The translations under genes were made by a program, and so were the position numbers. This document shows, piece after piece, positions 1-45,938 of a stretch of DNA of 64,000 bases; the stretch's first letter is position 1, and every line of letters begins with the position of its first letter. Location: the NCBI RefSeq assembly GCF_963675165.1, contig NC_087381.1, positions 2,170,001 to 2,234,000 of the forward strand. Direction: 5' to 3'. The DNA is from Halichondria panicea (Eukaryota > Porifera > Demospongiae > Suberitida > Halichondriidae). The notes below the pieces were generated by a model, which was not told the DNA's origin, did no database searches, and worked only from the letters and a program-made list of their open reading frames with translations.

Positions 1-340
1 GTAAAATTATGTAAGTCAAATCCAGCTGTTACTAATCGGAGCACCAGTTCTGGCGCTTTGACATCCACTGCAACACCTCACTTTAGTAATACCCAGGCCA
101 AATGTAGGTCTCATCTTAAAGTCAGGATGCCTGCATTTAGGGGGAGAAAAAACTATAATGATAATTATGCAGACATAGAAATGTAAAAATTGCACGATGT
201 AATGAGAATAATGCCAGCAGCCTATTATGAGCTCTATTGCTCTCCATGGAGTAGATGGAGTCTATAGCCGTTTGACTTTACGAATCACCTGATGATATAA
301 GACATAGCTCGTCGGTCTGCGAACCCTAACTTTGCTCTGC
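1..340 (-). pseudogene. Relic of RTK last two exons (cassette 1)
   Basis: Diverged copy of the 3' end of the RTK found intact at 40473-45938. It has the same order of landmarks: the gtaagtcaaa and ggagcaccag blocks of the last exon, tcaggatgcctgcat, then the gagctc...gaatcacctga block of the penultimate exon (kinase subdomains X-XI). Internal deletions, including about 40 bases in the last exon, destroy the frame. It continues past the left edge. It shows that the RTK once stood next to multi-pass copy A's neighbour. Confidence 0.6.
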
Positions 341-1200
341 CCTCAAAAAACGCGAAATGTTGCATCCCACGAAACTTTCCCGTTATACAATCCGTTACGG
401 CTACCCTCTTCTGGATAGAGATTCAATTAAACGGCCCCCTGGAATAGCTGGACAGGGTCCTGGTAAGAATGGGACCTCCGAGTACGACTTCTCACTCGAA
501 TACGTGATGCCTGTGTTTGCATCCATTCTACTGAACAATTTATAGTGAACTTTGAACTGAGAACTCTTAAGAGTGAGTTAGGTTATTAACGTGTCAAGCG
601 TTCATTTAATTATGCACTGAGTTATTATTCATCACTTATATACACTTTTTCGTCACCGAGTTTTCGAACAATCATAAGCCACTATAACAGGAGATAATGA
701 TGATCCTTAGGTGTATTCGATAATAACCGCAGTTAACATTAACTTTAGCCTATAGCCTCGACTCCAGGCCGTTGGAAAGTGGGTCTGCTATTTACAGACT
801 GTTTGGCGTTGGAAGATTCAATAGTAAATTTGTTAATAATTCTCTGTATATACTTGAGTATATACGGAACCCTCCGTTGTAGTTAACTCCTACTAGCACA
901 ATTAATTTTTGCAATGACGAAAACGCAATACAACTTGATGAAAATGGACATAACATTTTTCTGGGGGAATACCATATACTTTACTCCACTTGTCTAATGT
1001 ACTACAAAAATAATCATGTATACGATGACTATTAGTATAGGTATCTTGACCTTCAGAAATTAGTATATACAGGTTCACAGTATCTATCTGCTATAATTAA
1101 GGTGGAGACGCTAGCTGCTCTAGGAGTCAAAATAGTTATTAGAAAATGTATGGGAAAACTAATTGGCACATAGCTACATATACTAAATGAGTTCAATATT
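341..1200. repeat. Inter-cassette spacer, repeated between array units
   Basis: Non-coding spacer that recurs, with indels, at about 4290-4830, 7490-8460 and 16680-17660. Shared landmarks in order are tgttgcatcccacgaaac, acggccccctggaa, gagaactcttaagagtgag, aggttcacagtatctatc and ggtggagacgctagctgc. The last two lie just beyond the stop codons of the multi-pass genes and are probably their 3' UTR. A 62-codon ORF inside (357-545) is not kept open in the other copies, so I do not call it. Confidence 0.75.
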
Positions 1201-1223
1201 GCATGTTAAGTTGATCAAAACCA

Positions 1224-3202
1224 TCAGGCAACTGTTCCGTATGAGATGCATCGTTGATTCTCCCCTTGCAATAAACCTGCTTGAACTTGATAATTTATAG
1301 GATTTTCCATCCGATCAGAAAAATTATAAGAGGTGTCGTTTTCTTCAATATCGATATTATAATGCTGTTTCCAATGACTACCCAGCTCTTTCACCTTCCT
1401 AGCACATAATTTGAAGCAATTTGTTGACCATATCCTCCACATAGTAACAGCTACTAAATACACAAATGGAGCAACTGCAAACATTCCAGTAAGAGCGTAA
1501 GAAAATTTGGCAAAAGAAATCGCTTTCATGCTAGCTTCATCTGCAGCAGTGGCCATCACCATTATCAGAACAATATTCAACATAATCACAATATCGATTA
1601 AGTTGTAGATACGAAACTGTTCTTTGTATGGCTGTACCAGTAGCTGGACGATGACTATTAGTATCAAAAACACGGCACATATGGGATAGCAATAAATATT
1701 TCGTGAGAGTGTAAACAAGACGAACATAATGATATGAGTGAGAAAGAATGTTATAGAAAAGCATCGACAGTCACGAGTTCCATTTGTCCCATCCTTGTAG
1801 TAACTTTGATAACAGTAAACAAACATATCAACGTGTTGACACTGAACTTTAAACTTGTTCAGAACTCATTGAAACCAACGCATTGGATAGATGACAAGAA
1901 ATACAAGTGGAAAGATAATCACAAAGATCAAAACAAACAAAGCAGTGATAGCGTAGGGAAGGTGTTCTTTACTGAAGTAATCCACAGATGCATCCAGGTA
2001 GAGAACATAGCGGATACTATACTGTCTACTGTTACTGTGTTCAAATGTGTACATCTCTGTATACAAAAGGAAATCAAAAGAAACATCGATCAACTTCAAG
2101 TATGAGAGTAAAAAAAAAGTGGCAAAAGCTTTTACAATCGAACTCTCAAAGTCTGTTTTCTTATTACTGAAAAAACCTAGAAGTTTGTGAAATGGTTTCC
2201 AAAGCCAAACAATGACCCGTACGTTCCTACTGTACATACTCACTAGTATATAAGTAACAGTGACCAGTAACAGTGGATAGAATGCAATTGCATAATCTAA
2301 AGCAAGTGCCTGTAGTGGAGTTACACTCACACATATCGGTGGGATAATTGTCCGGAAAAAATCCAAATTCCAAATACCATAAACACATCCGAGTAGTCGA
2401 ATAAAGATGTTCATCCTGTGCCTAGCAATTTGCAAGGAAGATCTGGCTACTACAGGGGAGGCTACCCCTTGACAGAGAGAAATGAAAGCTTTCATCTATG
2501 GAGATGTTCCACTGAATTTAAAAACCACAACAAAGAAAAAGAAGATTGTTAAGGAATGTAAGCAATTGCTATGTACTTGATCCAGTTGTAGGTCATGTTC
2601 TCTCCTGTGCAGTTCATGCATTTCATTTCATACCAGTACAAGAGTGGTGAATATCCTGGTAGACACTTCCCACACAGTGTTGAATCGCGGTTGTATTTCT
2701 CGCACATGTAGGTGTTCAAATCGTTCACATTAGTTGGTAGTTTAGTATAGAGTGTGGCAGGAATGTGACCACAGCCAAAGAAGCACACTCCTAGTTCAGT
2801 CTTTCTTATAATGTTATCATACGTCATGCAATAACAGTCGAGTAAAGACATCTGAGGAATTGTGGAATCACACAGAACAGAGCGATAGGGAATGTCACCA
2901 CATGCACACTCTCCAATTGTGTAGTTGAAAAACATCCATGGATGACATTCTTCATCTGAACCATGCAGCTGATGAGATGTTCGTTTTAACTCTGCTACAA
3001 GAGCATCAGGTCTTCCATCGCTGGCAAATGATAATGACTTGCAAGGCAGTTCTATCTCACCAAGCCGACAACTACTGTTGTCCACACCGTTGACTGTGTC
3101 CACATAAACCACAGCTTGATGCTCCGAGCAAAGTACCAAACAAGTTACCACACTCAAGTACACACTAGCAACTAAAACTTTATATTTGAAGTGCGTAGTC
3201 AT
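1224..3202 (-). pseudogene. Cys-rich multi-pass membrane protein, copy A (broken)
   Basis: Colinear over its whole length with the intact copies B, D and G. Three lesions are visible. A one-base deletion near 2551 shifts the frame after the AYIP of the first TM segment. The conserved Trp before MKAF has become a stop (TAG, 2496-2498). A conserved Arg codon after MRWFQ has become TGA (1863-1865). After the frameshift the rest stays in one frame except for these stops, so decay is recent. The signal peptide, ectodomain cysteines, TM segments and the NPINYQ tail are all still recognisable. The start is the ATG that aligns with the other copies. Confidence 0.85.
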
Positions 3203-3779
3203 TCTACGTATAGCTAGTATAGTTCTACTATCTTTCCTATTGCAATAGAAAACCACTGCTTTGCATTCATGTGTGTCCGCAGTATAATTATGTAACCAAA
3301 ATGAAAGATAACTGTAACTATATTTATTGTGAAAGGTTGTTATTATTATGTGTATGTGTGTGCACTTGACTAATGTGTACATTGTTTACTTAGTTAATTT
3401 GTACTGTAGCTATGGTTTCTGTTATAGGTATGTTAAGTAGGTTAATTACTTCCTGTGGAGCAGAGCCTCTATTTGTGTTAACAATAGATTCTTTGTAAAG
3501 AGGCCCTGCACGTTTCTCTTGTTTTTGGTGCATGTATGATCTCTGTTTTGTCAGTTGTTACTTTTGTCTATCTTGTTTAATGTTAAACCCTTGTCAAATC
3601 TTGAACTGACTCCGCCGCTTAGCTAGTTCTGGCACTCAACTCTGCCAACAAAGGTGAGAAAGATTTCAAACACAGGCATTCAATTATATTTTGGTATAAA
3701 CTAACAGTCTATAAAAAAATCTTGTCAACAGTAATCTACAAGCGTCACAACATGCACAATACAGTCATAGTGTGTTTAC
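3203..3779. other. Upstream flank of copy A; no gene seen
   Basis: Begins with a short leader shared with copies B and G (tctacgtata, then aaaccactgctttgcattc and aaaatgaaagataactg). The middle (about 3380-3650) is not matched elsewhere in the window and has no coding pattern. It is the likely promoter/5' UTR region of copy A; I could not define a core promoter. Confidence 0.4.
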
Positions 3780-4130
3780 CTACAATTGTATGTAATGGGG
3801 TACCAAGTCTGGCGCTACTGCAACACCTCACTTTAGTAATGCGTAAGTATCTGGCCAAACGTAGGTCTCATCTTGAAGTTAGGATGCCTGCATTTAGAAT
3901 CAAGGGTGAGAGGTGAGGGTGAGAAAACTCTAACATAAATAATTATATGCAGACATAGAAATGTAAAAATTGCACCATGTACTGAGAATAAGGCCTATTT
4001 TATGAGCTTAAAGATTGCTATATTGCTCTATTACTCTCCATGGCCCGGAGTGGATATAGTCTATAGTCGTTCGACTTTACGAATCACCTGATAATATAAG
4101 ACATAATTATAGTCGGTCTGCGAACTCTGA
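3780..4130 (-). pseudogene. Relic of RTK last two exons (cassette 2)
   Basis: Matches the RTK 3' end: ggtaccaagtctggcgct, gtaagtatctggccaaa, aagttaggatgcctgcat (last exon, the RPTFGQI region) and then tatgagctta...tttacgaatcacctga (penultimate exon). The frame is lost. It sits directly upstream of multi-pass copy A and downstream of copy B, the position the intact RTK occupies next to copy H. Confidence 0.65.
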
Positions 4131-4836
4131 CTTTGAGACTGTATGGATATATACATGTGGTTATAGCAATATGCTTGTATGTCGGGGGCCCTCATTCAGC
4201 ACTTTTTGTAATCAAACATCATGCGACTGAAATCGCAATGATGGAAAAGAGTAGTTAACTCCAAGTCCAACCGGCTCACAAAATGTGCTGCCAAGGAATG
4301 CATGGGCTGTTGCATATTAAACACACTCTGTTACGGCTACCCTCTTCTAGATTGAGAATTAAACGGCCCCCTGGAATAGCTGGACAGGGTCCTGGTAAGA
4401 GTGGGATCTCAATCCGAGTACGACTTCTCACTTGAATACGTAATGCCTGTGTTTGCATCCATTCTACTGAACAATTTATAGTGAACTTTGAACTGAAAAC
4501 TCTTAAGAGTGAGTTAGGTTATTAACGTGTCAAGCGTTCATTTATGCACCGAAATGTTTATTCATCACTTACACTTTAATGTACTACAAAATAATCATGT
4601 ATACGATGACTATATATTAGTATAGGTATCTTGACCTTCAGAAATTAGATATACATATAATACAGGTTATAATTATATACAGGTTCACAGTATCTATCTG
4701 CTATAATTAAGGTGGAGACGCTAGCTGCTCTAGGAGTCAAAATAGTTATTATTTTGTTATGAAATGCGTGGGCAAACTTTGGCATATACATATCCTAAAA
4801 TGAGTTCAAAATTGCATGTTCAGTTGATTAAAACAA
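4131..4836. repeat. Inter-cassette spacer, second copy
   Basis: Shorter version of the 341-1200 spacer. It keeps tacggctaccctcttct, acggccccctggaa, gagaactcttaag-like and the 3' UTR block aggttcacagtatctatc, but lacks several internal stretches. No coding sequence is supported here. Confidence 0.7.
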
Positions 4837-6807
4837 TCAGGCAGCTGTTCCGTATGAGATACGTCGTTGATTCTCCCCTTGCAATAAGCCTGCTTGAACT
4901 TGATAATTTATAGGATTTTCCATTCTATCAGGAAAATTATCAGAGGTGTCGTTTTCTTCAATATTATGCTGTCTCCAATGACTACCCAGCTCTTTCACCC
5001 TCCTAACACACACTTTGAAGCAATTTGTTGACCATACCTTCCACATAGTAACAGCTATGAAATACACAAATGGAAGAACTACAAACATTTCGGTAAGAAT
5101 ATAAGAAAAGTTAACAAAACGAACTGTTTTCAGGCTAGCTTCAATTGAAGCAGTTACCATCACTGATATCAGAACAATATTCAACATCATCACAATATCG
5201 ATTAAGTTGTAGATACGAAACTGCTCTTTGTATGGCTGTACCAGTAGCTGGACGATGACTATTAGTACTAAAAACACGGCACATATGGGATAGCAATCAA
5301 TATTTCGTGAGAGGGTGAACAAGACAAACGTAATAATATTAGTTAGAAAGAACGTTATAGAAAAGCATCGACAGTCACGAGTTCCATTTGTCCCGTCCTT
5401 GTAGTAACCTTGATAACAGTAAACAAACATATCGACGTGTTGACGCTGAACTTTAAACTTGTTCAGTATTCGTTGAAACCAACGCATTGGATAGATGACA
5501 AGAAATACAAGTGGAAAGATAATCACAAAGATCAAAACAAACAAAGCAGTGATAGCGTAGGGAAGGTGTTCTTTACTGAAGTAATCCACAGATGAATCCA
5601 GGTAGAGAACATAGCGGACACTATACTGGCTACTGTTACTGTGTTCAAATGTGTACATCTCTGTATACAAAAGGAAATCAAAAGAAACATCGATCACCTT
5701 CAAGTATGAGAGTAAAAAAAAAGTGGCGAAAGCTTTTACAATCGAACCCTCAAAGTCCGTTTTCTTATTACTGAAAGAGCCTAGAAGTTTGTGAAATGGT
5801 TTCCAAAGCCATACAATGACCCTTACGTCACGACTGTGCATACTCACTAGTATATAAGTAACAGTGACTAGTAAAAGTGGATAGAATGCAATTGCATAAT
5901 CTAAAGCAAGTGCCTGTAGTGGAGTTACACTCACGCAAATCGGTGGGATAATTGTCCGAAAAAAATCCAAATTCCAAATACCATAAACACATCCGATTAG
6001 TCGAATGAAGATATTCGCCCTATTCCTAGCAACTCGCAAGAAAGATCTGAGTACTATAGGGGAGGCTAAACCTTGACAGAGAGAAATGAAAGCTTTCATC
6101 CATGGATGTGTTCCACTGAATTTTAAACCCACAACAAAGAAAAAGAAGATTGTTAATGGAATGTAAGCAACTGCTATGTACTTGATCCAGTTGTAGGTCA
6201 TGTTCTCTCCCGTACAGTTCATGCAGCCCATTTCATACGAGTACAAGAGTGGTGAATACCCTGGTAGACACTGCCCACACAGTGTTGAATCACGGTTGTA
6301 CTTCTCGCACATATAGGTATTCAAATCGCTCACATTAGTTGGTAATTCATAATACAGTGTGTCAGCAATACGATCACAGCCAAAGAAGCACACTCCTAGT
6401 TCAGTCTTTCTTGTAATGTTATCATATGTCATGCAATAACAGTCGAGTATAGACGTCTGAGGAATTGTGGGATCACACAGAACAGAGCGATAGGGAATGT
6501 CAACACACGCACACTCTCCAATCGTATCGTTGAAAAACATCCATGGGTAACATTCTTCATCTGAACCAAGCAGTTGATGAGATGTTCGCTTTAACTCTGC
6601 TACAAGAGCATCAGGTCTTCCATCGCTGGCAAATGATAATGACTTGCAAGGCAGTTCTATCTCACCAAGCCGACAACTACTGTTGTCCACACCGTTGACT
6701 GTGTCCACATAAACCACAACTTGATGCTCCGAGCAAAGCACCAAACAAGTTACCACACTCAAGTACAAGCTAGCGACTAAAACTTTATATTTGAAAAGCG
6801 TAGTCAT
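4837..6807 (-). CDS. Cys-rich multi-pass membrane protein, copy B (intact)
   Basis: Intact intronless gene, 656 aa. Residues 1-25 form a signal peptide. About 27-205 is a Cys-rich ectodomain with at least six N-glycosylation sequons. It opens with VVYVDTVNGVDNSSC, which resembles the entry of a right-handed beta-helix, and closes with CGQCLPGYSP and CMNCTG. From about 209 come 8-10 hydrophobic segments (near 209-230, 265-285, 297-322, 355-382, 414-440, 480-499, 506-524, 534-553, 570-592), with conserved loops WLWKPFHK, KEHLPYA and GYYKDGTNGTRDCRCF. The cytoplasmic tail ends MENPINYQVQAGLL...SYGTAA. The TM part resembles a large, uncharacterised family of sponge, cnidarian and lancelet proteins known to me by pattern only. 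Function is unknown; a surface receptor or sensor is a guess. Confidence 0.9.
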   Translation of the reverse strand: MTTLFKYKVLVASLYLSVVTCLVLCSEHQVVVYVDTVNGVDNSSCRLGEIELPCKSLSFASDGRPDALVAELKRTSHQLLGSDEECYPWMFFNDTIGECACVDIPYRSVLCDPTIPQTSILDCYCMTYDNITRKTELGVCFFGCDRIADTLYYELPTNVSDLNTYMCEKYNRDSTLCGQCLPGYSPLLYSYEMGCMNCTGENMTYNWIKYIAVAYIPLTIFFFFVVGLKFSGTHPWMKAFISLCQGLASPIVLRSFLRVARNRANIFIRLIGCVYGIWNLDFFRTIIPPICVSVTPLQALALDYAIAFYPLLLVTVTYILVSMHSRDVRVIVWLWKPFHKLLGSFSNKKTDFEGSIVKAFATFFLLSYLKVIDVSFDFLLYTEMYTFEHSNSSQYSVRYVLYLDSSVDYFSKEHLPYAITALFVLIFVIIFPLVFLVIYPMRWFQRILNKFKVQRQHVDMFVYCYQGYYKDGTNGTRDCRCFSITFFLTNIITFVLFTLSRNIDCYPICAVFLVLIVIVQLLVQPYKEQFRIYNLIDIVMMLNIVLISVMVTASIEASLKTVRFVNFSYILTEMFVVLPFVYFIAVTMWKVWSTNCFKVCVRRVKELGSHWRQHNIEENDTSDNFPDRMENPINYQVQAGLLQGENQRRISYGTAA

Positions 6808-7164
6808 TCTACGTATAGTATAGTTCTACTAATTACTGATTCGGTATAATTTTTTCTGGAAAACCACTGCTTTGCATTCGTGTGTCCGCAGTATATAATT
6901 ATGTAACTAAAATGAAAGATAACTGGAACTATATTTATTGTGAAAGGTGGGAAAAATTTCAAACACAGGCATCCATATTATAATTATGTAATAGTAATTT
7001 ATTATGTAATGATTATCTAATTTTGATTGGTATGGAAATTCTCTTCTAACAGTGTATATAAACAATCTTGTGAACAGTAATCTACAAGCTTATAGTTATG
7101 TAGCGTTACAACATGCACAATATAGTCATAGTATGTGTACCTACACATTGTGTATGTCTGTATA
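6808..7164. other. Upstream flank of copy B
   Basis: Shares its first part with the flanks of copies A and G. Its second part, from about 7013 (ttgattggtatggaaattct onward), recurs at 38863-39045, where it is fused to truncated copy H. No gene is seen; it is a likely promoter region. Confidence 0.45.
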
Positions 7165-7470
7165 ATTATGTAAGTCAAATCCAGCTGTTACTAATCGGAG
7201 CACCAATTTAGTTCTGGCGCTTGGGTATCCACTGCAACATCTCACTTCCAGCATATCTGGCCAAACATAGGTCTCATCTTGAAGTCATGATGCCTGCATT
7301 TTGTTTTATGATGAGAAAAACTGCAGACATAGAAATGTAAAAATTGCATGATGTAATGAGAATAAGGCCAGCAGCCTATCATGCATGAGCTTAAAGATTG
7401 CTCTATTGCTCTCCATGGAGTAGATGGAGTCTATAGCCGTTTGACTTTACGTTAGCTTTGCGAACTCTGA
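7165..7470 (-). pseudogene. Relic of RTK last two exons (cassette 3)
   Basis: Same landmarks as the other relics: gtaagtcaaatccagctg, cgcttgggtatccactgc, atctggccaaacat, then catgagcttaaagattgctc and tttgactttacg. The last exon lacks the middle portion and the frame is lost. Confidence 0.65.
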
Positions 7471-8464
7471 CTTTGCTCTGTCCTAAAAAACCGCGAAATG
7501 TTGCATCCCACGAAACTTTCCCGCTATATATACAATCCGTTACGGCTATACCCTCTTCTGGATTGAGATTCAATTAAATGGCCCCCTGGAATGGCTGGAC
7601 AGGGTCCTGGTAAGAATGGAATCTCCGAGTACGACTCCTCACTCGAATACGTAATGCCTGTGTTTGCATCCATTCTACTGAACAATTTGCTTTGAACTGA
7701 GAACTCTTAAGAGTGAGTTGGTTATTAACGTGTCCAACATTCATTTAATTATGCACTGAGTTGTTATTCATCACTTACACTTTTTCGTCACCGGGTTTTT
7801 GAACAATCGTAAGCCACTAACAAGAGATAATGATGATCCTTAGGTGTATATTCGATAATAACCGTGGTTAATTAACCTAAGCCTATAGCCTCGACTCCAG
7901 GCCGTTGGAAAGTGGTTTGATATTGCAGACTGATTGGCATACGTGGATTCATTAGAAAATTTGTTAATAATTCTCTCTAGATCAGTTGACTGTACGGGAA
8001 CCTTCCGTTGTTTAACTACTACTAGTATAATTAATTTTTGCGATGACATCACAATAATTATCAAGTTTACAAATTAAATGCGGAATAGAATACTGATAAA
8101 TACACTATAGACTATTAAATTCATTCGCTACAAGTCTATTTCGTATAGTTCTTGGTGTAAACATAATTATACAGTAACTTGATGAAAATGGACATAACAT
8201 TTTTCTGGAGGAATACTACTTTACTCCCACTTAATCGTTGTACATTGACAAAAATAATCATGTATACAATGACTATTAGTATAGGTATCTTGACCTTCAG
8301 AAATGATTATAATTATATACAGGTTCACAGTATCTATCTGCTATAATTAAGGTGGAGACGCTAGCTGCTCTAGGAGTCATGTTATGAAATGCGTGGGCAA
8401 ACTTGGCATATACATATCTACTAAAATGAGTTCAAAATTGCATGTTCAGTTTTGATCAAAACAA
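7471..8464. repeat. Inter-cassette spacer, third copy
   Basis: The longest close match to 341-1200 and to 16680-17660. It includes a stretch at about 8060-8200 (aatgcggaatagaatactga, tatttcgtatagttcttggt) that is also present at about 17360-17450 but missing from the first two copies. No supported gene. Confidence 0.7.
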
Positions 8465-10441
8465 TCAGGCAGCTGTTCCGTATGAGATGCGTCGTTGATT
8501 GTCCCCTTGCAATAAGCCTGCTTGAACTTGATAATTTATAGGATTTTCCATCCGATCAGGAAAATTATAAGAGGTATCGTTTTCTTTAATATCGATATTA
8601 TGATGTTGTTTCCAATGATTACCCAGCTCTTTCACCCTCCTAGCACACAATTTGAAGCAATTTGTTGACCATATCTTCCACATAGTAACAGCTACTAAAT
8701 ACACAAATGGAAAAACTACAAACATTCCGGTAAGAACAAAAGAAAAGTTAGTAAAACGAACTGCTTTCATGCTAGCTTCATCTGCAGCAGTGGCCATCAC
8801 CATTATCAGAACAAAATTCAACATCATCACAATATCGATTAAGTTGTAGATACGGAACTGTTCTTTGTATGGTTGTATCAGTAGCTGAACAATGACTACT
8901 AGTGTCAAAAGCACAGCACATATAGGATAACAATAAATACTTTGTGAGAGGGTGAACCAGACAAACATTATAATTTAAGAGAGAAAGAACGTTATAGAAA
9001 AGCATCGACAGTCACGAGTTTCATTTGTTCCATCCTTGTAGTAACCTTGGTAACAGTAAACAAACATATCGATGTGTTGGCGCTGAACACTAAACTTGTT
9101 GAGAACTCGTTGAAACCAACGCATTGGATAGATGACAAGAAACACAAGTGGAAAGATAATCACAAAGATCAAAACAAACAAAGCAGTGATAGCGTAGGGA
9201 AGGTGTTCTTTACTAAAGTAATCGACAGATGCATCGAGGTAGAGAACATAGCGGACACTATACTGGCTACTGTTACTGTGTTCGAATGTGTACATCTCTG
9301 TATACAAAAGGAAATCAAAAGAAACATCGATCAACTTCAAGTATGAGACTAAAAAAAAAGTGGCGAAAGCTTTTACAAGTGAACCCTCAAAGTCTGTTTT
9401 CTTATTCCTGAAACATCCCAGAAGTTTGTGAAATGGTTTCCAAAGCCATACGATTACCCGTACGTCCCGACTGTACATACTCACTAGTATATAAGTAACA
9501 GTGACCAGTAACAGTGGATAGAATGCAATTGCATAATCTAAAGCAATTGCCTGTAGTGGAGTTATACTTACGCATATCGGTGGGATAATTGTCCAGAAGA
9601 AATCCAAATTCCAAATACCATAAACACACTCGAGTATTCGAATAAAGATATTCATCCTGTTCCTGGCAATTCGCAAGAAAGACCTGGCTACTATAGGGGA
9701 AGCTACACCTTGACAGAGAGAAATGAAAGCTTTCATCCATGGAGATGTTCCACTGAATTTGAAACCCACAACACAGAAAAAGAAGATTGTTAACGGAATG
9801 TAAGCAACTGCTATGTACTTGATCCAGTTGTAGGTCATGTTCTCTCCCGTGCAGTTCATACATTTCATGTCATACGAGTACACAAGTGGTGAATATCCTG
9901 GTAGACACTTCCCACACAGTGTTGAACCTCGGTTGTATTTCTCACACATATAGGTGTTCAAATCGTTCACATTAGTTGGTAGTTTAGTATAAAGTGTGTC
10001 AGCAATACGATCACAGCCAAAGAAGCACACTCCTAGTTCAGTCTTTCTTGTAATGTTATCATACGTCATGCAATAACAGTCGAGTATAGACGTCTGAGGA
10101 ATTGTGGGATCACACAGAACAGAGCGATAGGGAATGTCACCACACGCACACTCTCCAATCGTATCATTGAAAAACATCCATGGATAACATTCTTCATCTG
10201 AACCATGCAGCTGATGAGATGTTCGTTTTAACTCTGCTACAAGAGCATCAGGTCTTCTATTGCCGACAAATGATAACGACTTGCAAGGCAGTTCTATCTC
10301 ACCAAGCCAACAACTACTGTTGTCCACACCGTTGACTGTGTCCATATAAACCACAGCTTGATGCTGCTCCGAGCAAAGTACCAAACAAGTTACCGCACTC
10401 AAGTACACATTAGCGACTAAAACTTTATATTTGAAAAACAT
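8465..10441 (-). pseudogene. Cys-rich multi-pass membrane protein, copy C (one in-frame stop)
   Basis: Reads colinearly with copy B from MFFKYKVLV to SYGTAA in a single frame, except for one stop, TAA at 8975-8977, in the TM segment after SITFFLS. The intact copies read His-Ile-Ile there; this copy reads stop-Ile-Ile, with no length change. As written it would give a 488-residue protein missing the last three or four TM segments and the NPINYQ tail. It could be a recent pseudogene, a truncated receptor, or a sequence error. An upstream in-frame ATG at 10504 would add 21 residues, but the ATG at 10441 matches the start of the signal peptide in the paralogues. Confidence 0.85.
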
Positions 10442-10776
10442 AGTTATTCTTAGTTTCATGGACCAGCCGATAATTATATCATTATCGTCTGGTAAATTAC
10501 TCATGAGCTACTTATGCAGCGGTCTAAGTGGCTGTTTGCATTGATAATTGGTTAGTGGGTGGAGGACGGATGTATGAAATCACATAATTAGATTTGCCAA
10601 ATCGCTAGCCGTGCAGCTGTGCAGTTTCACAACTTACTACAAACACTTATCAGCCACTTACTGACTTAGAGCGCCACGATATTTGTGGCGCAGTCAACAC
10701 AATTCTGTACTGTGAAATTGGCCATACCCTCTTTCAGAGTCTGGGTCCGCGAGACTATCACAGCCAAAAATCCACG
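10442..10776. repeat. Duplicated upstream block (copy C flank)
   Basis: About 335 bp that recurs almost unchanged at 19628-19977, upstream of copy D. Landmarks are gaccagccgata, gcagcggtctaagtggctg, tttgccaaatcgctagcc, cttatcagccacttactgac and gagcgccacgatatttgtgg. It contains the inverted pair taagtggctg...cagccactta (near 10530 and 10650), so part of it may be an inserted TIR element of about 130 bp. It links copies C and D as products of one duplication. Confidence 0.75.
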
Positions 10777-11238: not shown

Positions 11239-11275
<37 letters not shown>

Positions 11276-16660: not shown

Positions 16661-16679
16661 TGTCAAGGAATGCATGGGG

Positions 16680-30116: not shown

Positions 30117-30168
30117 TATGAGTGAAAGTTCAGCACGAAAGAGCTGGCTGTACAAACTAAGCAAGGAG

Positions 30169-30843: not shown

Positions 30844-30844
<1 letters not shown>

Positions 30845-34489: not shown

Positions 34490-35757
34490 TAAATTACTAC
34501 GGTGGCCCTGAGGTACACACACACCTACTCCATTTTTCATTTGCGGTTCATTTCGCAGTTCAACTACTCTGTTTTTCATTTGCGGTTCATTTCGCAGTTC
34601 GACTATATGGAGCTTAATTTGTGTCAAAATTAAAAAGCAGTATTTTCTATTCCAAGTGAGTGTTCCAAATCATATTCCAATAATTATTTCAAAGCTGTAA
34701 TTACATAATTATACGATCGCAACATGATGATTTGTTGCATGCCGTCTCCCGGTATGGTCTTCCATCCAGAGTGAGAATGGACATGGGAGGAGAGAATACT
34801 GGAATTGCTCGTTTTATGCTATCTCATCCTCTTAGGGGTCCAGGGAGAGGGAGTGCGATTGTCAGTGCTAGTGTACATAATCAAGGGTGGAAAGGTTTTG
34901 GAGAGATCTTTTCATCGGCTGCACAGGAATATTTTATCATCTTTTTTATCACATGGAATAAACAGGCCAGTTGAATCCGATAGACACCTTACATCTTTTT
35001 CGCCTGCACTTCGTATATTTGCCCTACATTAATTATCAAATAGATATATTTCTTGATGCGTGGGCAAATCACTGTTTATGTTCAGAGCGAAACCAAACTC
35101 CACTACAGCTATGGATGCAAGGGATGTGTACACAGTTACTGGACACAATTACTGATGTAAGTGGTAAGTGCTATAATAATATACAGTGTACCTTAATAGC
35201 TTAAACAATGTATTCTTTTTATCTACATGTATATAGGACTACCCTTGTTATGGGATTGATTGGGAAGAGCCTGTGCCAGAAGTTTAAGAAAATGAACATG
35301 TTGAAGTACCACCTATATACTCATTCTCCACTGTCAGAAGAACAATTTCAAGATCTTTCAGCACTCTATCCTCTACAAAGAACTCTCCATTCCAGTGTTC
35401 ATGCTGTAGATGTCTTCCAAGAAGTGTTGGACTATGTTACGGATATTACCCAATAATGTTTTACTGTGTGCATGTGGTATGTGTGTGTGTCCAATGAATA
35501 CTATTACATTTTGGAAATTGTTTACGAGAAATACATTAAATATATTGGAATTTTAATTGGAACACTGACTTGGAATTGTAATGTTTTTACTGTGTGTGTG
35601 GTATGTGTGTATGTGCCTTTGGAATTTGCATTGGATTGTTGACATTTAATATTGGAATTTGAATTGGAACATGGACTTGGAATTGAATAAACTGCTCTTA
35701 GAATTTTGACACAAATTAAGCTCCATATAGGTGTGTACCTCAGGGCCACCGTAATAA
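34490..35757 (+). mobile_element. Decayed TIR transposon with integrase-like gene
   Basis: Ends are inverse copies: tacggtggccctgaggtacac (34499) against its complement near 35727-35753, followed inward by tggagcttaatttgtgtcaa and its inverse (34609, 35710). Between the two left-end blocks are two tandem copies of tttttcatttgcggttcatttcgcag that the right end lacks. Inside on the plus strand is a broken integrase-core protein: [17 protein letters not shown] (34750-34805, with a DxGGEN motif), [18 protein letters not shown], then NPIDTLHLFRLHFVYLPYIN and TPLQLWMQGM (34971-35130), and a tail YGIDWEEPVPE (35240). It resembles DDE integrase-like proteins common in invertebrate genomes. At least three frame breaks make it inactive. 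Confidence 0.7.
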
Positions 35758-35824
35758 ATAGTATGTTGCAAAAAATACAGCAGTATAAACATTGTGTTAA
35801 ATTTTGGTATTCAGACTTTGACCC

Positions 35825-36881
35825 GGTGTCATAAAATTTTGGGCCCCCCCATGTTTAGGCCCCCCGGGCCTAGAATTTTAAAATTTTGGGCCCCCCTGGG
35901 CCTAGAATATTAACAGTTTAGGCCCCCCAGGGGGTCCAAACTGTTAACATTCTAGGCCCCCCACTGTGAGATTAGGCCCCCCCTCTTCTGCTATCCTTTT
36001 CTGCACGATAGAACGAAGTCAAAGAGATATAATAATATGGTAAGGTTAGCTCTATTAGTTGACAAAGCATCAAAGAGACTGCATGCATGCAAAGACTCTG
36101 TATCAAAGTAGCAAAAATGTTTGCATTATTATTCTGTCATGGAATTCAAAGTGAAGGAAGATTTACCTTTCAAGTTACTTATGCTTTACCTATAAGAGTT
36201 AAATGCTTTGATGCAGCTCTGCAATGTTGGATCTGCCTGTAAGACAATCGATGTTGTTGCATAGCTATCGCCATATTTGCAACTTTGTGCTTACTTTCTC
36301 AGCCAAATTTCATGACAAAAAAGTATAAAACACACAATATCAGTGCAAAGACAACAATTCATATCTTCCTCCATGTTTTCCTATACATAGAAGATGTAAA
36401 TTGTTGTGGGGATGCTCCAATAGCATCACTGGCTCAGCTCTCAAGTAATGTGAAATCACAGATAGAAGTCAAGAGAGAAACTGTTGTATCATGGGGGAAT
36501 CACAATAGCAGTTTCCTTTCGGGACAATGGTAATCTTGGACAGTCCTGACCAATTCGGGACAGTTGGCACCTATGTGCTTCGTGCTGCATGAGGCCTGAT
36601 TCATAGAATGACATGGTGCAGTGTGATGGCTGTGAGACCAGTGGTATACTACTGTACATGCATGAAATGTGTGTGTATGAGGAGAGCTGCATTCAGTAAC
36701 TGGCACTGCATATACTGTGAAGACCATAGAAGACTGCATGTATTGGTGTATTTTGAGAATGCACTGTCACATAATGTTACCGCTGTTGCGCTGTTAATGG
36801 GGGGGCCTAAAATTTTAAGAGGGGCCAAAATTTTAGGCCCGGGGGGGCCCAATCTCATGGGGGCCTAAAATTTTATGACAC
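35825..36881. mobile_element. TIR element with C/G-run ends and a possible PHD-finger relic
   Basis: Ends are ggtgtcataaaattttggg and its inverse ...aaaattttatgacacc. Both flanks carry runs of six or more C or G within ggcccccc/gggggggcc motifs, some forming internal palindromes (aacagtttaggccccccagg / ccagggggtccaaactgtt). In the interior (36610-36725, plus) are MVQCDGC in one frame and WHCIYCEDH in another, the order of a PHD zinc finger with a frameshift between. No full ORF. Confidence 0.6.
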
Positions 36882-37570
36882 CAGCAGAGCAGGTATTCAT
36901 ATTATAATTATGTAATATCATTAGCATGGTAGTGCTAATAGTATAGGGTTGGGTCGAAAACAGCAAAAGGCCCCCTTTGGATCTCACCCAAGACACAAGA
37001 CACAGTTACTTTGAGTTTATATATCTATTGCCTATATCATTTGTAACATTTGTGTGAAATATGAACTGAATTGAACATTGTACAAAAAAGTTATACTGAA
37101 GAACAGCAAAACTAAAAAAACAACAACTTTTTCTTCATCTTCCTCTCACGTTCTTCAGTGAGATAATCTAGAGAACTGTAGGTCCACAGGACAAACTAAT
37201 GGCACCGTACTGTTCTCTGTCGCCTTGGGTAGTGCAGTAACTAATCTACGAAGTTAAATTTGCTAGGGTGGAAGCTACGCCCTCTTTAATGAGTGCAGAG
37301 GTGAGGTCGCCATTGTTTACCTACTGAGCATGCTCAGACATAGTAGAAAGCATGGCCACACCCCTCTTATCTTAGCAACCACTTGAGATCTATAGCAACA
37401 GTAGTGTTTTGCACTGTCGATTCTTACCGCTCCAGTTAATGCTCCTTCTAGCCTCGATCCCAGGCCGCACTTCATCAGGAAGGAGGCTAGGCTAGCTCCT
37501 CGCATGCAAGTTAAATTGACACAAGCTCTTATCTGAGCAGCTTTTATTCTGCCCCTTATCATAAATTTAA
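36882..37570. other. No gene recognised
   Basis: Non-coding. 37448-37500 holds another fragment of the cgatcccaggcc repeat family. Confidence 0.4.
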
Positions 37571-37673
37571 GTTATCATAAAGTTCTTGGTCTTGCAGAGA
37601 TGCATGCAATAATCATATGGCTTATGATTATTGCATGCATCTATATACAAGACCAAGAACTTTATGATAATTA
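37571..37673. repeat. Near-perfect hairpin, arms about 43 bases, loop about 14
   Basis: tcataaagttcttggtcttg ... gcatgcaataatca pairs with tgattattgcatgc ... caagaccaagaactttatga. A few unpaired bases lie near the middle (gcagag against tatata). It could be a tiny foldback element or the precursor of a small RNA. Confidence 0.8.
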
Positions 37674-37888
37674 TCATGACAGACACTGCAACAGTGCAAA
37701 TAAAAATTCGATCAGCCTACAGCTAGCTAGCTAGATCTAGCTGTAGCAGCCTTCTTTTTTATCATAGTACTATGGTAATGCCACCTACTTGATCTAGGTA
37801 GCACCATAGAATCTATGTGCTGGTACCTATAAGAAAAAAAGTGTACAAACAAGTGTATTTGTGAAAAAAATAATGGTGAGAAGTAGAC

Positions 37889-38121
37889 TACCGTATAGTG
37901 CGAAATTTTCGAGGGGCTAAATTTTCACGGATTTCGTGGGTTAGCAATCATACACGAAAATTAAGTCCATGAAAAATTTTCTTTAATTAGAATTACCTGC
38001 TATAACGTGCAAAGGCGTGGCTTCCGGTATAAGCAGTCATTCCGCGAACATTGTGCAACGAAATGCTTTTAGAGGCCAATCCACGAAATATAAGTGCTTC
38101 AAAAATTTCGTGCTATACGGT
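37889..38121. mobile_element. MITE with taccgtatag TIRs
   Basis: Begins taccgtatagtgcgaaattt and ends aaatttcgtgctatacggta, about 26-base imperfect inverted ends. The body contains further cgaaatttt/cacgaaaat motifs. No ORF. Confidence 0.8.
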
Positions 38122-38276
38122 ATCTATGGTTGCATGTTGGATAAGCTGTTCAAACCAAAAAGTTGGAGTGCACAAGATGGGTAACCCTAAAAAAACCGCC
38201 CATTAACAAAACGTGATTAGTTACGTGGCCTCCCAGGACCACTCTATGCATGCATGCACGCAGTGAAAAAAGTTTG

Positions 38277-38862
38277 CAAACAAGTGCAAAAAACATTTTT
38301 GAAAAAATGGGGAAGAGTACAGGGTTGGAAGAGCATGCATGCATGTGCATTGAAGTAACAAAAAGTTCGAAAACAAGATTGTGGGTTGGTATAGTCTTTG
38401 CATGCTCCAACTAGTTGGGAGTGGGGCTCAATCTTTACGATCTTTAACAGTTGGGTCCAGCACTACTTCGAGTTTTGGTGGGCAGGGCTCATCTGTAGAG
38501 TCTCAAATTCAGGAGTGCTATTCATGCACTCATGTAATTATACACTATGTGTTTCAGTGCTGGTCCTCCCTGGTGGAAAAAAGTCTCATTCAAATGCATT
38601 ATTATTGTATCGAAACACATGCAAGTTGATGGTCAAATAGGGGATCGAGCGCCTTGCATAAAGAAAAAGGTGAACGAGAAGTAGTGCTGGACCCAACTGT
38701 TAAAGATCGTAAAGATTGAGCCCCACTCCCAACTAGTTGGAGCATGCAAAGACTATACCAACCCACAATCTTGTTTTCGAACTTTTTGTTACTTCAATGC
38801 ACATGCATGCTCTTCCAACCCTACTCTTCCCCATTTTTTCAAAAATGTTTTTTGCACTTGTC
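38277..38862. mobile_element. Foldback element with about 185-bp arms
   Basis: Arms 38277-38467 and 38681-38862 are near-perfect reverse complements (caagtgcaaaaaacattttt ... against ... aaaaatgttttttgcacttg), with a 213-bp loop. Right after the right arm the sequence becomes the copy B-type upstream flank (38863), so one boundary of the rearrangement that truncated copy H lies at this element. Confidence 0.85.
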
Positions 38863-39045
38863 TAATTTTGATTGGTATGGAAATTCTCTTCTAACAGTGT
38901 ATATAAACAATCTGTGAACAGTAATCTACAAGCTTATAGTTATGTAGCATTACAACATGCACAATAATTATAGTCATAGTATGTTTACCTACACATTGTG
39001 TAGATCTATGTCTGTAAAATTATGTAAGTCAAATCCAGCTGTTAC
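38863..39045. repeat. Copy B-type upstream flank plus start of an RTK relic
   Basis: Matches 7013-7195 (ttgattggtatggaaattct ... gtaagtcaaatccagctgtt). It ends in the first bases of the RTK last-exon relic and is then joined directly to the middle of copy H. Confidence 0.75.
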
Positions 39046-40119
39046 TAAAAGTAGCGAATGTTTTTACAAGCGAACCCTCAAAGTCTGTTTTTTTATTCCT
39101 AAAAGAGCCTAGAAGTTTGTGAAATGGTTTCCAAAGCCATACAATGACCCGTACGTCCCGACTGTACATACTCATTAGTATATAAGTAACAGTGACTAGT
39201 AACAGTGGATAGAATGCAATTGCATAATCTAAAGCAAGTGCCTGTAGTGGAGTTACACTTACGCATATCGGTGGGATAATTGTCTGGAAGAAATACAAAT
39301 TCCAAATACCATAAACACATCCGGCTAGTCAAATGAAGATGTTCATCCTGTTCCTGGCAACTCGCAAGAAAGATCTGAGTACTATAGGGGAGGCTAAACC
39401 TTGACAGAGAGAAATGAAAGCTTTCATCCATGGAGATATTCCACTGAATTTGAAACCCACAACAAAGAAAAAGAAGATTGTTAATGGAATGTAAGCAACT
39501 GCTATATGTACTTGATCCAGTTGTAGGTCATGTTCTCTCCCGTACAGTTCATGCAGCCCATTTCATACGAGTACACAAGTGGTGAATACCCTGGTAGACA
39601 CTTCCCACACAGTGTTGAATCACGGTTGTATTTCTCGCACATATAGGTGTTTAAATCGCTTATATTAGTCGGTAGTTTAGTATAAAGTGTGTCAGCAATA
39701 TGATCACAGCCAAAGAAGCACATTCCTAGTTCAGTCTTTCTTGTAATGTTATCATACGTCATGCAATAACAGTCGAGTATAGACGTCTGAGGAACTATGC
39801 ATGGGATCACACAATAGGGAATGTCACCACACGCACACTCTCTAATCGTATCGTTGAAGAACATCCATATGGATGACATTCTTCATCTGAACCATGCAGC
39901 TGATGAGATGTTCGTTTTAACTCTGCTAAAAGAGCATCAGGTCTTCCATTGCTGGCAAATGATAATGACTTGCAAGGCAGTTCTATCTCACCAAGCCGAC
40001 AACTACTGTTGTCCACACTGTTGACTGTGTCCACATAAACCACAGCTTGATGCTTCGAGCAAAGCACCAAACAAGTTACCACACTCAAGTACACGCTAGC
40101 GACTATATTTGAAGAGCAT
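39046..40119 (-). pseudogene. Cys-rich multi-pass protein, copy H (truncated)
   Basis: Retains the first half of the family, from MLFKY to the FATFF part of the fifth TM segment, where it is cut at 39046. Frame breaks: about 12-13 bases lost right after the start (near 40100), so the signal peptide runs into a stop; an insertion at PYG (near 39870); changes around CDPTIPQ (CVIPCIVPQ, near 39800); a two-base insertion at YIAVAY (near 39505). Still 90-odd percent alike by eye to copy F. It is the partner of the intact RTK to its right. Confidence 0.85.
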
Positions 40120-40472
40120 AGTGATTCTCTATGACTGGATACTGAAACAAAATTGATCGTACTAACTGATTTGGAAGCTTTCTACAGTAATTGAAAACCA
40201 TGCACTGCTCATCATTTGTGTGTCTTATAGTATAATTAATGTTACTAAACTGAAAGATATGCTTCAGTCCACAGATGTGTTTCAAATTATTGTTTCTATT
40301 AGCTACAATGTTTCCATGACAACAAAAATTATACAGCACAGATAACTTCCAGAAATGAATGTTTGAAATGTTGCCTACCTTTTACAACAAACAGCGTTCA
40401 AATCATAATTATTATCTCAGTTTACTAATTAGCAATTATTCTCATACAGCCTAAATTATATTATAGTCATAG
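40120..40472. repeat. Upstream flank of copy H / downstream of the RTK
   Basis: Homologous to 23012-23327 and 13190-13589. It includes the RTK 3' UTR on its right side. Confidence 0.6.
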
Positions 40473-43400
40473 TTAATTTTCATACACATTTTGTAAGTCA
40501 GTATATAAGTCAAACCCGGCTGTTAATGGGGCACCAAGTACTGTCGCTTGGGCGTCCACTGCGACATCTTTCTGGTCCCACTTTAAAAGCTCTGACAGAG
40601 GTTGACTATAATGCGTAAGTATCTGGCCAAATGTCGGCCTCAACTTGAAGTCAGGATGCCTGTATGTTAGACAATACGTGGCTGCAGGCCTAAAAATATA
40701 GAATTAGGCACTCACCAGCATCCTATCATGAGCTTATAAATGGCTCTAGTACATCCAGGGGGTGGTGAGAGTCTAGAGCCGTTCGATAATTTACGAATCA
40801 CCTGAAATTATATAAAATAATTATAACTCTGCATGCTTATATAGTTAGTATACCATACATCCATATATTCACCTCCATGTTGGTTACTCCTTCAAATGGC
40901 TTGCAGCCAAGACTCCATATTTCAAACAGTAGGACTCCGTAACTCCAAACGTCACTGGCGGAGGAATACTTTTTGTAATGAAGGGCCTTTGAAGAAGAGA
41001 AATCAAGTAAACGTCACTCGCATAATTATAGCGTATACTTATTGTTTAACCTCTGGTGATGTCCACTTGAGTGGTACTAATCCCCCTTGTGATATATAGT
41101 AGTCACTTTCTTCCAGATCCCTCGCCATTCCAAAGTCAGAAATCTATTAATCACAATTATAAAACTATAGAGTATAGTCCAACAATCACAATCCAGAAAA
41201 GGACGAACCTTACACTGTCCGCCATTTTTTGTCATCAGAATGTTTCTAGCTGCTAGGTCTCTATGAACAAACTGTTTGTTGGACAAATAACTCATGCCTG
41301 ATGCTATCTGACAAGAATAGTCAAGACACTTCATTGCAACTTCTTTGTCATCTTGTTCCACCCTGCATGTCATGTACAGTATTCAACACGAACATGCACG
41401 TCACACGTATACCAATCACATAATTATAAGGCACCGATGCATATCTATAACAGGTATGGCTGTTTGTGACAATGGTACTAAGATTACTTTAGTATACCAT
41501 TGATATTAATAAAAGACTGATGTGTTTAAATAAGCATAAATAATCCATGGTATGACGACGTTGTCATTTCAAACATGGACTTTAGTAACACCATTTGAAA
41601 AGAAAATCATATAAAATAGATGCACACAATTCAAGATGATTTGACAGCTAATCGAAAAAGTCCCTGAACTGTTGTAGTTGGAATACATTAATTTGTATGG
41701 GTATACAGTCCTAGATGCATGTGTTATGTAATTCACCTCTGTTGCAATGTTGGAAGATAGTCCTTCATATTTCCACCTTCCATCAGCTCAAGAATAATCA
41801 TAGCCTGCAAAATTCATGTAACACTATAATTATAGTAATTCTATAACGACTTGCCTCGTTTCCAATAGTTACAACACCATGTAGGGAAATGATAGAGCGA
41901 TGATGAAATTGTCCGTTAATGGCAGCTTCTTGTAAGAGCTTCACTTTATCTTCCTCCGTAGTCTCATCGTTGAGAGTCTTAACTGCAACGTCTTTTGGGC
42001 CATCTAGTGACGTCCACACACCTTTCTTAACCACACCAAACTGACCCGAACCGATGCACTCAGATATACTGAAATTATATATTAACGACAACATATTAAA
42101 TAAGCCTAACAAACATAACGCTTACAATGTAGTTGGAAATCACCCACCACAATAATAATATTATACCTAAGTCCTTACAATAGTAATTTGGTAACCATAG
42201 TAATGGCTCATTCTGTTACTATATGCGGTATCTATAGCGTAAATAATGTTCCTTTTTACGTACTAATAAGCTAAAGTATAAGATTAAGTTACTCACTGTA
42301 GCTCGTTCAGAGGAATCTCGCGATATTTATGTATTGCCAGCTGCTCGTAAAGCACGTTTGCATTAGAAGAGGGCGTCCAATAAATGGGCTGCTCTTCAAA
42401 GAAATTTGATGCATCGTCCTCTCCCTATAATCATAATGCAAGTTTTAGGAGTATGCGACGGGTACAATAATTATGAACATTTTTACAACACTCATTCAAT
42501 TTAAGGCGACACAAAAAGTATTGCAAAGGACAACCTCTTCTTGATGTACTGAATACAGTGTGTCATACACAGAAGATAGATCCGCTTTAGATGTGACCGG
42601 CTCTTTTCTCTGATTCTGCATAATATCACATGCATGATTTCTTTTTGATTGTATATAGTTTTAACTTACTTGTGTTGGAACGTAGATACCTCGAGCACTT
42701 GGAGTAGTTTGCGATCGAGTAGGCACAGACTGAAAAATAAAAAAGCAAGTGGAGTAATTACAGTCACTAGCGTAATTATTTTAGAAGCCACTCACGTAAA
42801 TACTGTTGTCAAAATAAGAATCTTCAAGGTCCAATTTATGCTCCGAGTACAGTGGATTAGGAAAGTTTCTCTCTAACTCGCTGTTATCGAGATCTTGGTA
42901 CCTCTCTTCTAGATCAGAATAAACCGGTGGCTCATTGTGATCAGTAGAATTACATCCTCTGTTTGTGAGAGTCATTTCTATGCAAACAGAAATCAAGGGC
43001 ATATTAAATGTACAACCCACATGACAAATTGTATTGAGTAAAGTACATGCTGAGGAAATCATTACAGAAGTAAACTCAAATTCCCGATGTCATGCACGGT
43101 AATGATTGATATTGTATACATGGTTACGAGCAGACATATAATTATAGCAATAATAATCCCTCATAAAAGTTTCCGAAACATATTTCATGTAGTGTGCATG
43201 TTGCTAAATTGACCAATGTTACATGCATGTATAGTATACTCACCTATTGAGCTATATACAGGGTTCTGGACACCGTTGCTATGCACATTTGGAAACTTAT
43301 ACCTACGTCTTTGTCGTTTGAGTAGTACGACTGTTAGTACCACTATAACAATTAGTACGACAATTGCGCCAACGGCTATACCAATGCCTAATCCAATTGT

Positions 43401-45938
43401 AGATGTGACGGTACCCATGGGTACAGATGGATTTGCGAGAAGGATTGAAGAAGTTGGTAGAAGCATCAATAATTCAGAAGAAGTTATTTCAACACTGATT
43501 TCACTGCTGACAATGAGTGCAGAGGGAGGTGGATTGGGTGTCGATTTTACACCTGATTCGACTGTAGATAGGACTGTGCCCATTATATTTGTGAGCAGCA
43601 TTGAAGAAGTTGGGAGAAGAGTTACCATTTCAAGTGAAGGTATTGCAGTGTTAGAATCATCTATACTGCTGCTGACAATGGAGGCAATGGGAGATGGAGT
43701 GGGAGTTGATGTCAGTGTCAGAGAGCTGGTTGACATATAGCTGGAAGTAGATTCACTGACCGAAACGTCCATGCTAGATGTTAGCTGCATTGTTCGAAAT
43801 ACCGGAGAAGTTGCGCTAGGGAGTAATATGTTTGAGGTTGTCAACGGAGATGTAGTTTCCATAGACTGGCTAGAGCTCAATAGAGCGGAAGAAATGGTTA
43901 TAGTTTCAGTAGTCGAAGGTGCTGTACTTAGGGGTAATGATGATGACAATGGGTTTAAGGTTGCTAACGGAGATGTAGTGGAAAAGACGGTACTAGTCTC
44001 ACTATTCAAGGCTGTTATGCTAGCCCCATTAGAAGATGTAGTCAACTGCACAGAGATGCTAGATGTTATGTCATTCTCACTGCTTGAAGTTGGAGACAAG
44101 CTTGGCTGCATGGTCATTGTTGGTAACATTTCAGAGGGTGTGACGAAAACATTCTCTAAGCTGCTTGTTACTGAACCAGTCATAGAAGCATCTAGAGTAG
44201 AGGATATTTCGATGGAGGCAGATGGGCTCGTTGACGACAATAATACTGGTGTACTCTTATCTAATGTTATCGTAGTAGACACTCTCAAAGATGTCGATGG
44301 ATTGGCAACCAACGTGGAAGTAGGAACTTCAGTTGAGAGAATTAGCGGGATGCTTGTTGTTTGTGGCACACTTGTGACAATGTTTGTCATCGGAAAAAAG
44401 TCTGGTGAAGAGAAATCAGTAGTTTAGCAATTAACTGTATGCATTTAAATTCATAGATAATGTAACTTATTCATTATAGCATCTAAATGGAGTTTCTAAA
44501 TGAATATCCATTGGTGGTTCCCCAAAAAGACGTGAGGAATTTAATATGCCCGAATACAGTAATGCGTTATTAGTGGGTTGGTCTCATGCACACTCACCTA
44601 TTCCAAGAGATATCAAAGGTAGAGCAACATCCATTGAAGGCGGTGGCACAGTGATTGCAGCTGGTAAGGGTATGGTTACTGGACTCACTACATAGTTAAG
44701 AAGTTCATATCCGTTTATAAAGAACAAACCGACCACTCCAGAAGCGCCACGTCCGCTGAACTGGGGTAGGTATAATCCAGGTACATCACCAGCACTGAAT
44801 TGCAGAGGTGAATCAAGCACCCCACTATGTAAATTAACATCCGTTGTAAGTGGAGGAGGTAGAGTAACTTCATCCATCCTGTTGTAGCTAGTTGGTGGAT
44901 CAGAATTAGGTCTCCAGATTTGAAGCCCAGGATATTCGTTTCTGCCTCCTCCAGTATTTAAGGTAGCTGCTATGGTCCAATTTTTGATTTCACCGGCGCA
45001 AGGGAAAATGACCTCAGGTAATATTCTCAGCTGTAAGGAATCCAAGGAAACTGTTGAAGCTATCAGCAGTTGATCTTCTGTCAAAAATCCAACAGTACAA
45101 TCAGTTGTATCACCTGTATACGAGAAAATACGATCACTTACTATAGCTATATACGTAGCCATAGATCTAGAAATAATTAGCTATATAGTTTCTATCTCAC
45201 CATCGGTACTGATTTCCATATTAATCAAAGGAGCGTTATTATTTGTGGTGATACCGTTGACTAGATCTAATTCTGCTAGGTCTTGTGGTCCACTATCTGC
45301 TCGTACACTGTAGCTCAGATATCCTGATATTGTTTGAAAGTTCATATTGAGCTGACTGTTCTGTGACCTAGGAGAGAAAACACCAAGAACATAGCCAGAT
45401 TGAAAGCTCACTCCAGGACTGACATCGTAACTGTAGTACTTTCTCTCAGGAGAGCCATTCAGCAGTGGGACATTTATTGCAATGGTGCTTCCACTCACAA
45501 GCCGATAAGTTGTTCCACCAATATTCTCCCATAATTGTATTTCAGGACTAACAGGCTCAGTGGTATCAAAATCCGAAGCAACAAAATTCACTCGTGTTAT
45601 GTTGCCATTGCAACCCTCAAATCGAGTGTTGGGGAAGATGTACTGTGTCCGATCATCAGATGTTATTGCTCCAGCTTGAGGTTCATTGACAGCCGATAGG
45701 TCTGGTTGAGTCAACGAGCAGATTTCAACCTGGGAATATAAACCTAGACAAGAAGGGAGTGTAAGAGTAGACTGTATTAATTAGCTCTTGAGTAATTTAC
45801 CTAGATCTATGCATGGGCTGCTATTGCTTAATGTTTCTACTTTAGCTGTTAATGTGCTCCTAGATCTATATGCCTGGAATTTCTTTATCACTCACATTGA
45901 ATAAGAATAGACAAGACCAAGTAACTGAGACTCCTCAT
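40473..45938 (-). CDS. Receptor tyrosine kinase, intact, about 16 exons
   Basis: Coordinates span exons and introns; the spliced protein is roughly 1200 aa. Exon 1 (45896-45938) codes a signal peptide, [14 protein letters not shown]; exon 2 is 45801-45845. Exons 3 (45201-45743) and 4 (44598-45140) are each 543 nt and phase 1-1, coding two related extracellular domains ([10 protein letters not shown] / [18 protein letters not shown] / PGLQIWRP). Exon 5 (43244-44401) is a Ser/Thr-rich mucin-like stalk plus TM segment ([20 protein letters not shown]) and NPVY. Exons 6-9 (to about 42297) are juxtamembrane, with PPVYSD, NPLYSE and YSVHQ. Kinase: [49 protein letters not shown]; the stop is at 40473. 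Splice sites are GT/AG throughout where checked. It is a membrane receptor signalling by tyrosine phosphorylation; the ligand is unknown. The ectodomain type is not one I can name. Confidence 0.85.

Follow-up and report, generated by a model that had tools for sequence, protein, structure and literature searches.

The window analysed here is a 64-kb stretch of DNA (C5:2170001-2234000), which we examined together with 40 kb of its left flank and 20 kb of its right flank. Positions to the left of the window start carry negative coordinates, and the genome searched amounts to 131 Mb in 39 contigs. The region holds an array of 12 copies of a gene encoding a multi-pass protein, all on the minus strand, of which eight lie within the window (copies 1-8) and four in the left flank (copies a, b, c and d). 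The multi-pass gene of the array is intronless. At its left edge, outside the window, the array is bounded by a SMAD-like gene with an MH2 domain, and at its right edge by an intact receptor tyrosine kinase (RTK) gene, RTK B. The SMAD-like gene is convergent with the multi-pass gene and the RTK lies upstream of the multi-pass gene on the same strand. Intergenic distances are short at both edges: the stop codon of RTK B is ~370 bp from the start of copy 8, and the ends of the MH2 frame and of copy a are ~360 bp apart.

The state of preservation varies from copy to copy. Frames are open in five of the 12, namely a and b in the left flank, copy 2 (4840-6810), copy 4 (17666-19636) and copy 7 (31161-33143), which was used as the reference copy. 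Copy 1 (1227-3205) is broken by one 1-nt deletion and two in-frame stops, copy 3 (8468-10450) has one in-frame stop, and copy 6 (21036-23014), which adjoins a second large RTK stretch designated RTK A, has a single 1-nt deletion that shifts the frame. Copy c also carries a 1-nt deletion and copy d is split. Only fragments remain of copies d, 5 and 8: copy 5 (20007-20887) is cut at nt 1021, and copy 8 (39047-40106), which adjoins RTK B, consists of the 5' half only, with small indels and one in-register stop. The junction between copies 4 and 5 is identical to that between c and d, the cut at nt 1021 being common to both, and this indicates that the copy pair was itself duplicated.

Repeated DNA interrupts the array at several points. 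The insert to the right of copy 3 contains a dispersed repeat (10962-12432) with copies on other contigs that are up to 97% identical, and the interval between copy 7 and the next RTK relic contains genome-repeated stretches (34604-38850) that were matched in three long blocks when 33300-38850 was used as the query; the part of this query from 33300 to 34603 gave short genome matches only. We also observed, at 28158-30118, two inverted arms of ~360 bp that are 97% identical and lie ~1.2 kb apart, an arrangement with the look of a mobile element. In the remainder of the window sugar-transporter-like genes have been duplicated locally (48566-49369, 51568-52743 and 53973-55046, one of them inverted), and frames in the right flank (L013:6519-7599) resemble them by eye. 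A gene for a POT-family (PTR2) transporter is found at 58182-60083, and frames that look alike by eye occur in the right flank at L013:48-1893.

RTK B (40473-45938, minus strand) has an open spliced frame of 15 exons encoding 1208 aa. Exons 1 to 8 lie at 45896-45938, 45201-45743, 44598-45113, 43244-44401, 42796-42977, 42670-42729, 42535-42615 and 42297-42424, and exons 9 to 15 at 41855-42068, 41737-41804, 41209-41362, 41051-41143, 40873-40986, 40716-40801 and 40473-40659. All splice sites are GT-AG except for one GC-AG. Two kinase exons match PF07714, which identifies the tyrosine kinase domain, and the spliced frame contains motifs that we take to be the catalytic motifs of a tyrosine kinase. 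By eye, the translation begins with a hydrophobic segment and has a single strongly hydrophobic stretch ahead of KRQRRR. Among the best 60 PDB matches the kinase domain is mostly nearest to FAK and the Eph receptors, and the list is headed by an EGFR entry in which two stretches match. RTK B differs from Eph-like and FAK-like RTKs in its ectodomain, for which Pfam gave no match at E 0.1 and which is 26-38% identical to its relatives in this genome, where it is matched at at least 17 places outside the array (at least 19 in all).

Exon-by-exon blastn against RTK B identified RTK A (23375-27350, minus strand) as a pseudogene. Exons 1-3 are absent, exon 4 is fused into exon 5, frameshifts are present in exons 4, 5, 14 and 15, and exon 13 has a 9-nt loss inside the segment that matches SASDVW of RTK B. 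The matched parts are 85% identical to RTK B in exon 4 and 92-100% identical in exons 5-15. A block found at 27503-27874 and at 47786-48126 was considered as proof that the duplication giving rise to RTK A reached the RTK 5' flank, and it was discarded because it occurs at 40 full-length places genome-wide, its own included. A separate observation concerns the DNA ~26 kb to the left of the array, where kinase-like exons and a frame with SRCR and fibronectin III matches lie on one strand (L009:1240-9583), possibly forming another receptor kinase gene; this kinase-like gene is different from the RTK of the array.

The first-pass annotation of the window had described tandem multi-pass copies accompanied by RTK remains in the same orientation at five relic sites, in addition to two large RTK copies. 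Our analysis confirmed the tandem copies, the RTK remains at 38-300, 3837-4111, 7121-7444, 13225-13807 and 16369-16662, and the stretches RTK A and RTK B. The RTK origin of the relic blocks was upheld by blastn against RTK B, the best E values at the window sites ranging from 6e-6 (16369-16662) to 0.0 (13247-13807); the weakest site, 16369-16662, also matches the relic at 7121-7444 (73%, E 1e-38). Five relics, those in the window all on the minus strand, are old RTK tails. The left flank contains one, at -6793..-6470, and the others are found at -38..300 upstream of the split copy d (given above as 38-300, the matching stretch beginning outside the window), at 3837-4111 upstream of copy 1, at 7121-7444 upstream of copy 2, and at 16369-16662, where the adjacent multi-pass copy has probably been lost. 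A fragment of an old relic (38969-39048, minus strand) is found on the broken 3' side of copy 8 and is 90% identical over 80 bp to 7121-7444. The remaining site is a younger remnant (13204-13807, minus strand) made up of a multi-pass start stub, a spacer and the RTK tail up to intron 14; it is 87% identical to RTK B 40147-40714. A search of the genome with the RTK-tail DNA returned four places, all within the array.

The old relics are closely alike. All five match RTK B only from ~40462 to 40786-40825, corresponding to exon 15, intron 14 and exon 14, the edges of 3837-4111 and 16369-16662 differing from those of the other three. A 31-column deletion is present in five of five old relics and absent from the three other sequences compared (RTK A, RTK B and the younger remnant). 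In an unrooted tree of 8 rows and 422 columns the old relics form one clade, separated from these three sequences, which group together, by a split with values of 100/100. The common extent, deletion and clade indicate that one truncated tail was copied.

The opposite side of the repeated unit carries a tail as well. The SMAD-like MH2 frame at the left edge of the array (L011:7778-8437, that is -12222..-11563) matches PF03166 with an E value of 1e-57, and each of the five old relics is followed, at a distance of 38-212 bp, by a block of ~250 bp that we call block X. In the left flank block X is found at -6382..-6133, where tblastn with the MH2 frame gave E 4e-19 at -6381..-6265 (92% over 39 residues). 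In the window it represents the SMAD-like 3' end on the plus strand, supported in each case by a DNA match, at 387-638 (the last 39 residues of the MH2 frame at 388-504, 85%, E 2e-15), at 4323-4577 in a decayed form (20 residues at 4356-4415, E 3e-4), at 7532-7783 (tblastn E 5e-16 at 7460-7651) and at 16700-16936 (tblastn E 2e-15 at 16686-16808). It is also matched at the left array edge (-11680..-11454), there without a relic and overlapping the end of the MH2 frame. A DNA query combining relic and block X found 9 places in the array or at its left edge, and the 18 other matches were at most 65 bp long. That block X is a plain 3' flank of the multi-pass gene is ruled out, as tblastn shows it to be the 3' end of the SMAD-like gene. 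We also noted that there are two SMAD-like MH2 frames directly to the left of the array, 66% identical to each other, the second at -14774..-14127 (L011:5226-5873); the right-hand one is the source of the tail clipped into the repeated unit.

Since a SMAD-like tail stands beside each of the five old relics, the old unit comprised a SMAD tail, the multi-pass gene and an RTK tail. An ancestral unit holding both the multi-pass gene and the RTK had been proposed earlier; it did hold sequence from both, but a two-gene cassette is not supported, the SMAD-like tail being there too. The same data bear on the proposal that each unit first held a full RTK and that the RTKs were then worn down individually until only their 3' ends were left. 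RTK A, which is large and eroded in part, and the younger remnant, which ends at a point of its own, would fit such a history, but five old relics that share one extent, one 31-column deletion, one ancestry and the same SMAD-tail neighbour are unlike the outcome of independent erosion. We therefore consider erosion of one RTK after another very improbable as the origin of the relics.

RTK remains had also been said to lie wherever a multi-pass copy has a right-hand neighbour, which overstated the case. RTK-derived sequence is present at most ~650 bp to the right in six of the 12 copies (b, d, 1, 2, 6 and 8), and to the right of copies 3 and 7 it is reached only past long inserts with dispersed repeats. 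For the other four (a, c, 4 and 5) a comparison of each right-hand interval with the RTK B locus revealed no RTK remnant, and the next multi-pass copy adjoins them at 166, 348, 371 and 149 bp, respectively. Copies b and 2 come out as a pair in trees of the multi-pass gene (full gene 89/98, 5' part 100/99), as do their relics in the relic tree (99/99), indicating that the relic moves with the multi-pass gene downstream of it.

This arrangement could have a regulatory basis if RTK exons 14-15 held the multi-pass gene's promoter or its 5' untranslated region and the relics were kept for that reason. The short distance between the RTK stop and the multi-pass start, together with a spacing of 304-311 bp in three old units (b, d and 2), would suit a promoter, yet copies a and 4 have open frames with no RTK relic to their right. 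Retention of this kind, which would be compatible with passenger tails, seems to us possible if rather unlikely. It is doubtful, and in our estimate distinctly unlikely, that the multi-pass proteins make up a receptor-like family, undescribed and strongly expanded, whose members here are driven from a putative promoter in the captured RTK 3' end; if true, such a promoter would tie multi-pass expression to the kinase locus.

Both families are well represented elsewhere in the genome. The multi-pass family gave at least 68 matches with a window copy as query and at least 71 with a distant copy as query, some of them pieces of one copy, and it forms further arrays at C5:1430001-1580000, C15:1430001-1480000, C10:4860001-4945000 and C7:4395001-4420000, whose members are intronless and Cys-rich. 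The RTK family likewise has many matches, with arrays at C4:2.5-2.77 Mb and C17:5.5-5.6 Mb. RTK sequence was found in none of 21 distant multi-pass loci taken with 1.5-kb flanks and in none of four ten-kb stretches sampled from the C5 1.43-1.53 Mb multi-pass array. When 25 distant multi-pass loci (142,276 bases) were compared with RTK B by blastn, only three matches of 24-29 bp were obtained (E 6e-4 to 1e-3), none of them in the tail. One 10-kb stretch of the C17 RTK array contains three RTK-like genes and no multi-pass match, and among the matches listed no multi-pass match outside this array has, by eye, a kinase within ~60 kb. The search for other adjacent pairs that had been recommended as a check thus found none among the matches listed and the stretches sampled, which within that scope is the outcome that the first-pass annotation had itself named as refuting its proposal.

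These results bear directly on the interpretation offered by the first-pass annotation, in which the array is a functional two-gene receptor cassette, a sensor and its kinase, amplified together because they act together. RTK A and RTK B do stand in the same orientation as the multi-pass copies and closely spaced with them, and a partnership is conceivable given that PMC12716839 reports sponge proteins in which 7TM and tyrosine kinase domains are fused. The GPCR-tyrosine kinase fusions of sponges and choanoflagellates described there likewise combine a multi-pass membrane domain with a tyrosine kinase; here, in contrast, there are two separate genes, and the multi-pass protein, at most a candidate 7TM protein, has no kinase match. 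A literature search that included portions of PMC8662651, PMC12716839 and PMC3449122 found no account of a multi-pass/RTK pair in that material, which does not prove its absence from print. Against a working pair, only one intact RTK faces the five open multi-pass copies of the 12, so that the two genes have not been kept intact together, and the SMAD-like tail is carried in the same way, so that not just two genes are repeated. Moreover, the families are not adjacent elsewhere among the matches listed and the stretches sampled, and RTK relatives follow one another with no multi-pass gene among them in the single 10-kb stretch inspected. A functional cassette is in our judgement extremely improbable.

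Very probably, the array consists of tandem multi-pass copies, many of which carry the clipped ends of both neighbours, and the pairing with the RTK is an accident of position. An early tandem duplication would have had one of its ends within RTK intron 13 and the other inside the final portion of the SMAD-like gene, giving units of the order SMAD tail, multi-pass gene, RTK tail. These would then have been multiplied, trimmed and fused through unequal crossing-over. A second, larger duplication would later have taken much of the RTK together with the multi-pass gene, after which RTK copy A would have decayed, and repeats inserted later would have separated some of the units. Both tails would be passengers, with no function of their own required. 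What moves them would be their position directly beside the multi-pass gene, which sits so tightly between its neighbours (~370 bp and ~360 bp) that a duplication including the flanks takes pieces of both. Against this model, RTK A shows that at least one duplication took in much of the RTK, so that not all units began with a bare tail, and the edges of relics 3837-4111 and 16369-16662 differ from those of the other three. The model is built on this genome, and as the relic tree is small and unrooted the order of events is one that we infer. Tandem arrays growing by unequal crossing-over contain duplications that end inside neighbour genes and repeat truncated copies of them, and the same is seen here; the general concept of partial duplication is covered in sections of PMC3449122. 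There is no difference in kind between this array and known tandem arrays with partial duplication of a neighbour, only in the genes involved. This is ordinary array evolution, and a cassette is not needed to account for it.

The multi-pass protein itself has eight hydrophobic stretches after a signal-like start, as judged by simple hydropathy. Scanning of 12 members of the family gave no Pfam match above cut-off, and a profile search gave no credible PDB match. We calculated pN/pS from nine full-length copies, skipping gapped and stop codons in the broken copies c, 1, 3 and 6 and leaving out the fragments d3, d5, 5 and 8. The pooled pN/pS is 0.37, with values of 0.34 for codons 25-212, 0.38 for codons 213-640 and 0.42 for codons 600-661, and pairwise dS is 0.13-0.18 in 35 of the 36 pairs, the exception being c versus 3 (0.03). 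The copies are under purifying selection, and the N-terminal part, which is presumably extracellular, shows no excess. The earlier suggestion that the array may now favour diversification of the multi-pass protein is thus not supported by these ratios, and diversifying selection on the extracellular part was rejected on the value for codons 25-212.

One tract of the gene stands out in comparisons between arrays. Codons ~160-215 (32493-32660 in copy 7) are 83-89% identical in DNA to copy 7 in 20 of 20 distant stop-free copies, a set that leaves aside L040, which has stops, and 14-17 of the 16-18 fourfold sites in this tract are identical. Outside codons ~160-215 DNA identity is 50-62% and about one third of the fourfold sites are identical. 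Ectopic gene conversion between arrays, or a constraint on the DNA itself, is a possible explanation for the tract.

A repeated neighbourhood can mimic a conserved gene pair while being merely the passenger of a tandem duplication. A simple test for passengers is available in common ends, a common deletion, a single clade, the tail of the other neighbour on the opposite side, and no adjacency elsewhere. The unnamed multi-pass family is more interesting than its pairing with the RTK and, with no named domain and a possible tract of sequence exchange, may merit more of the attention.
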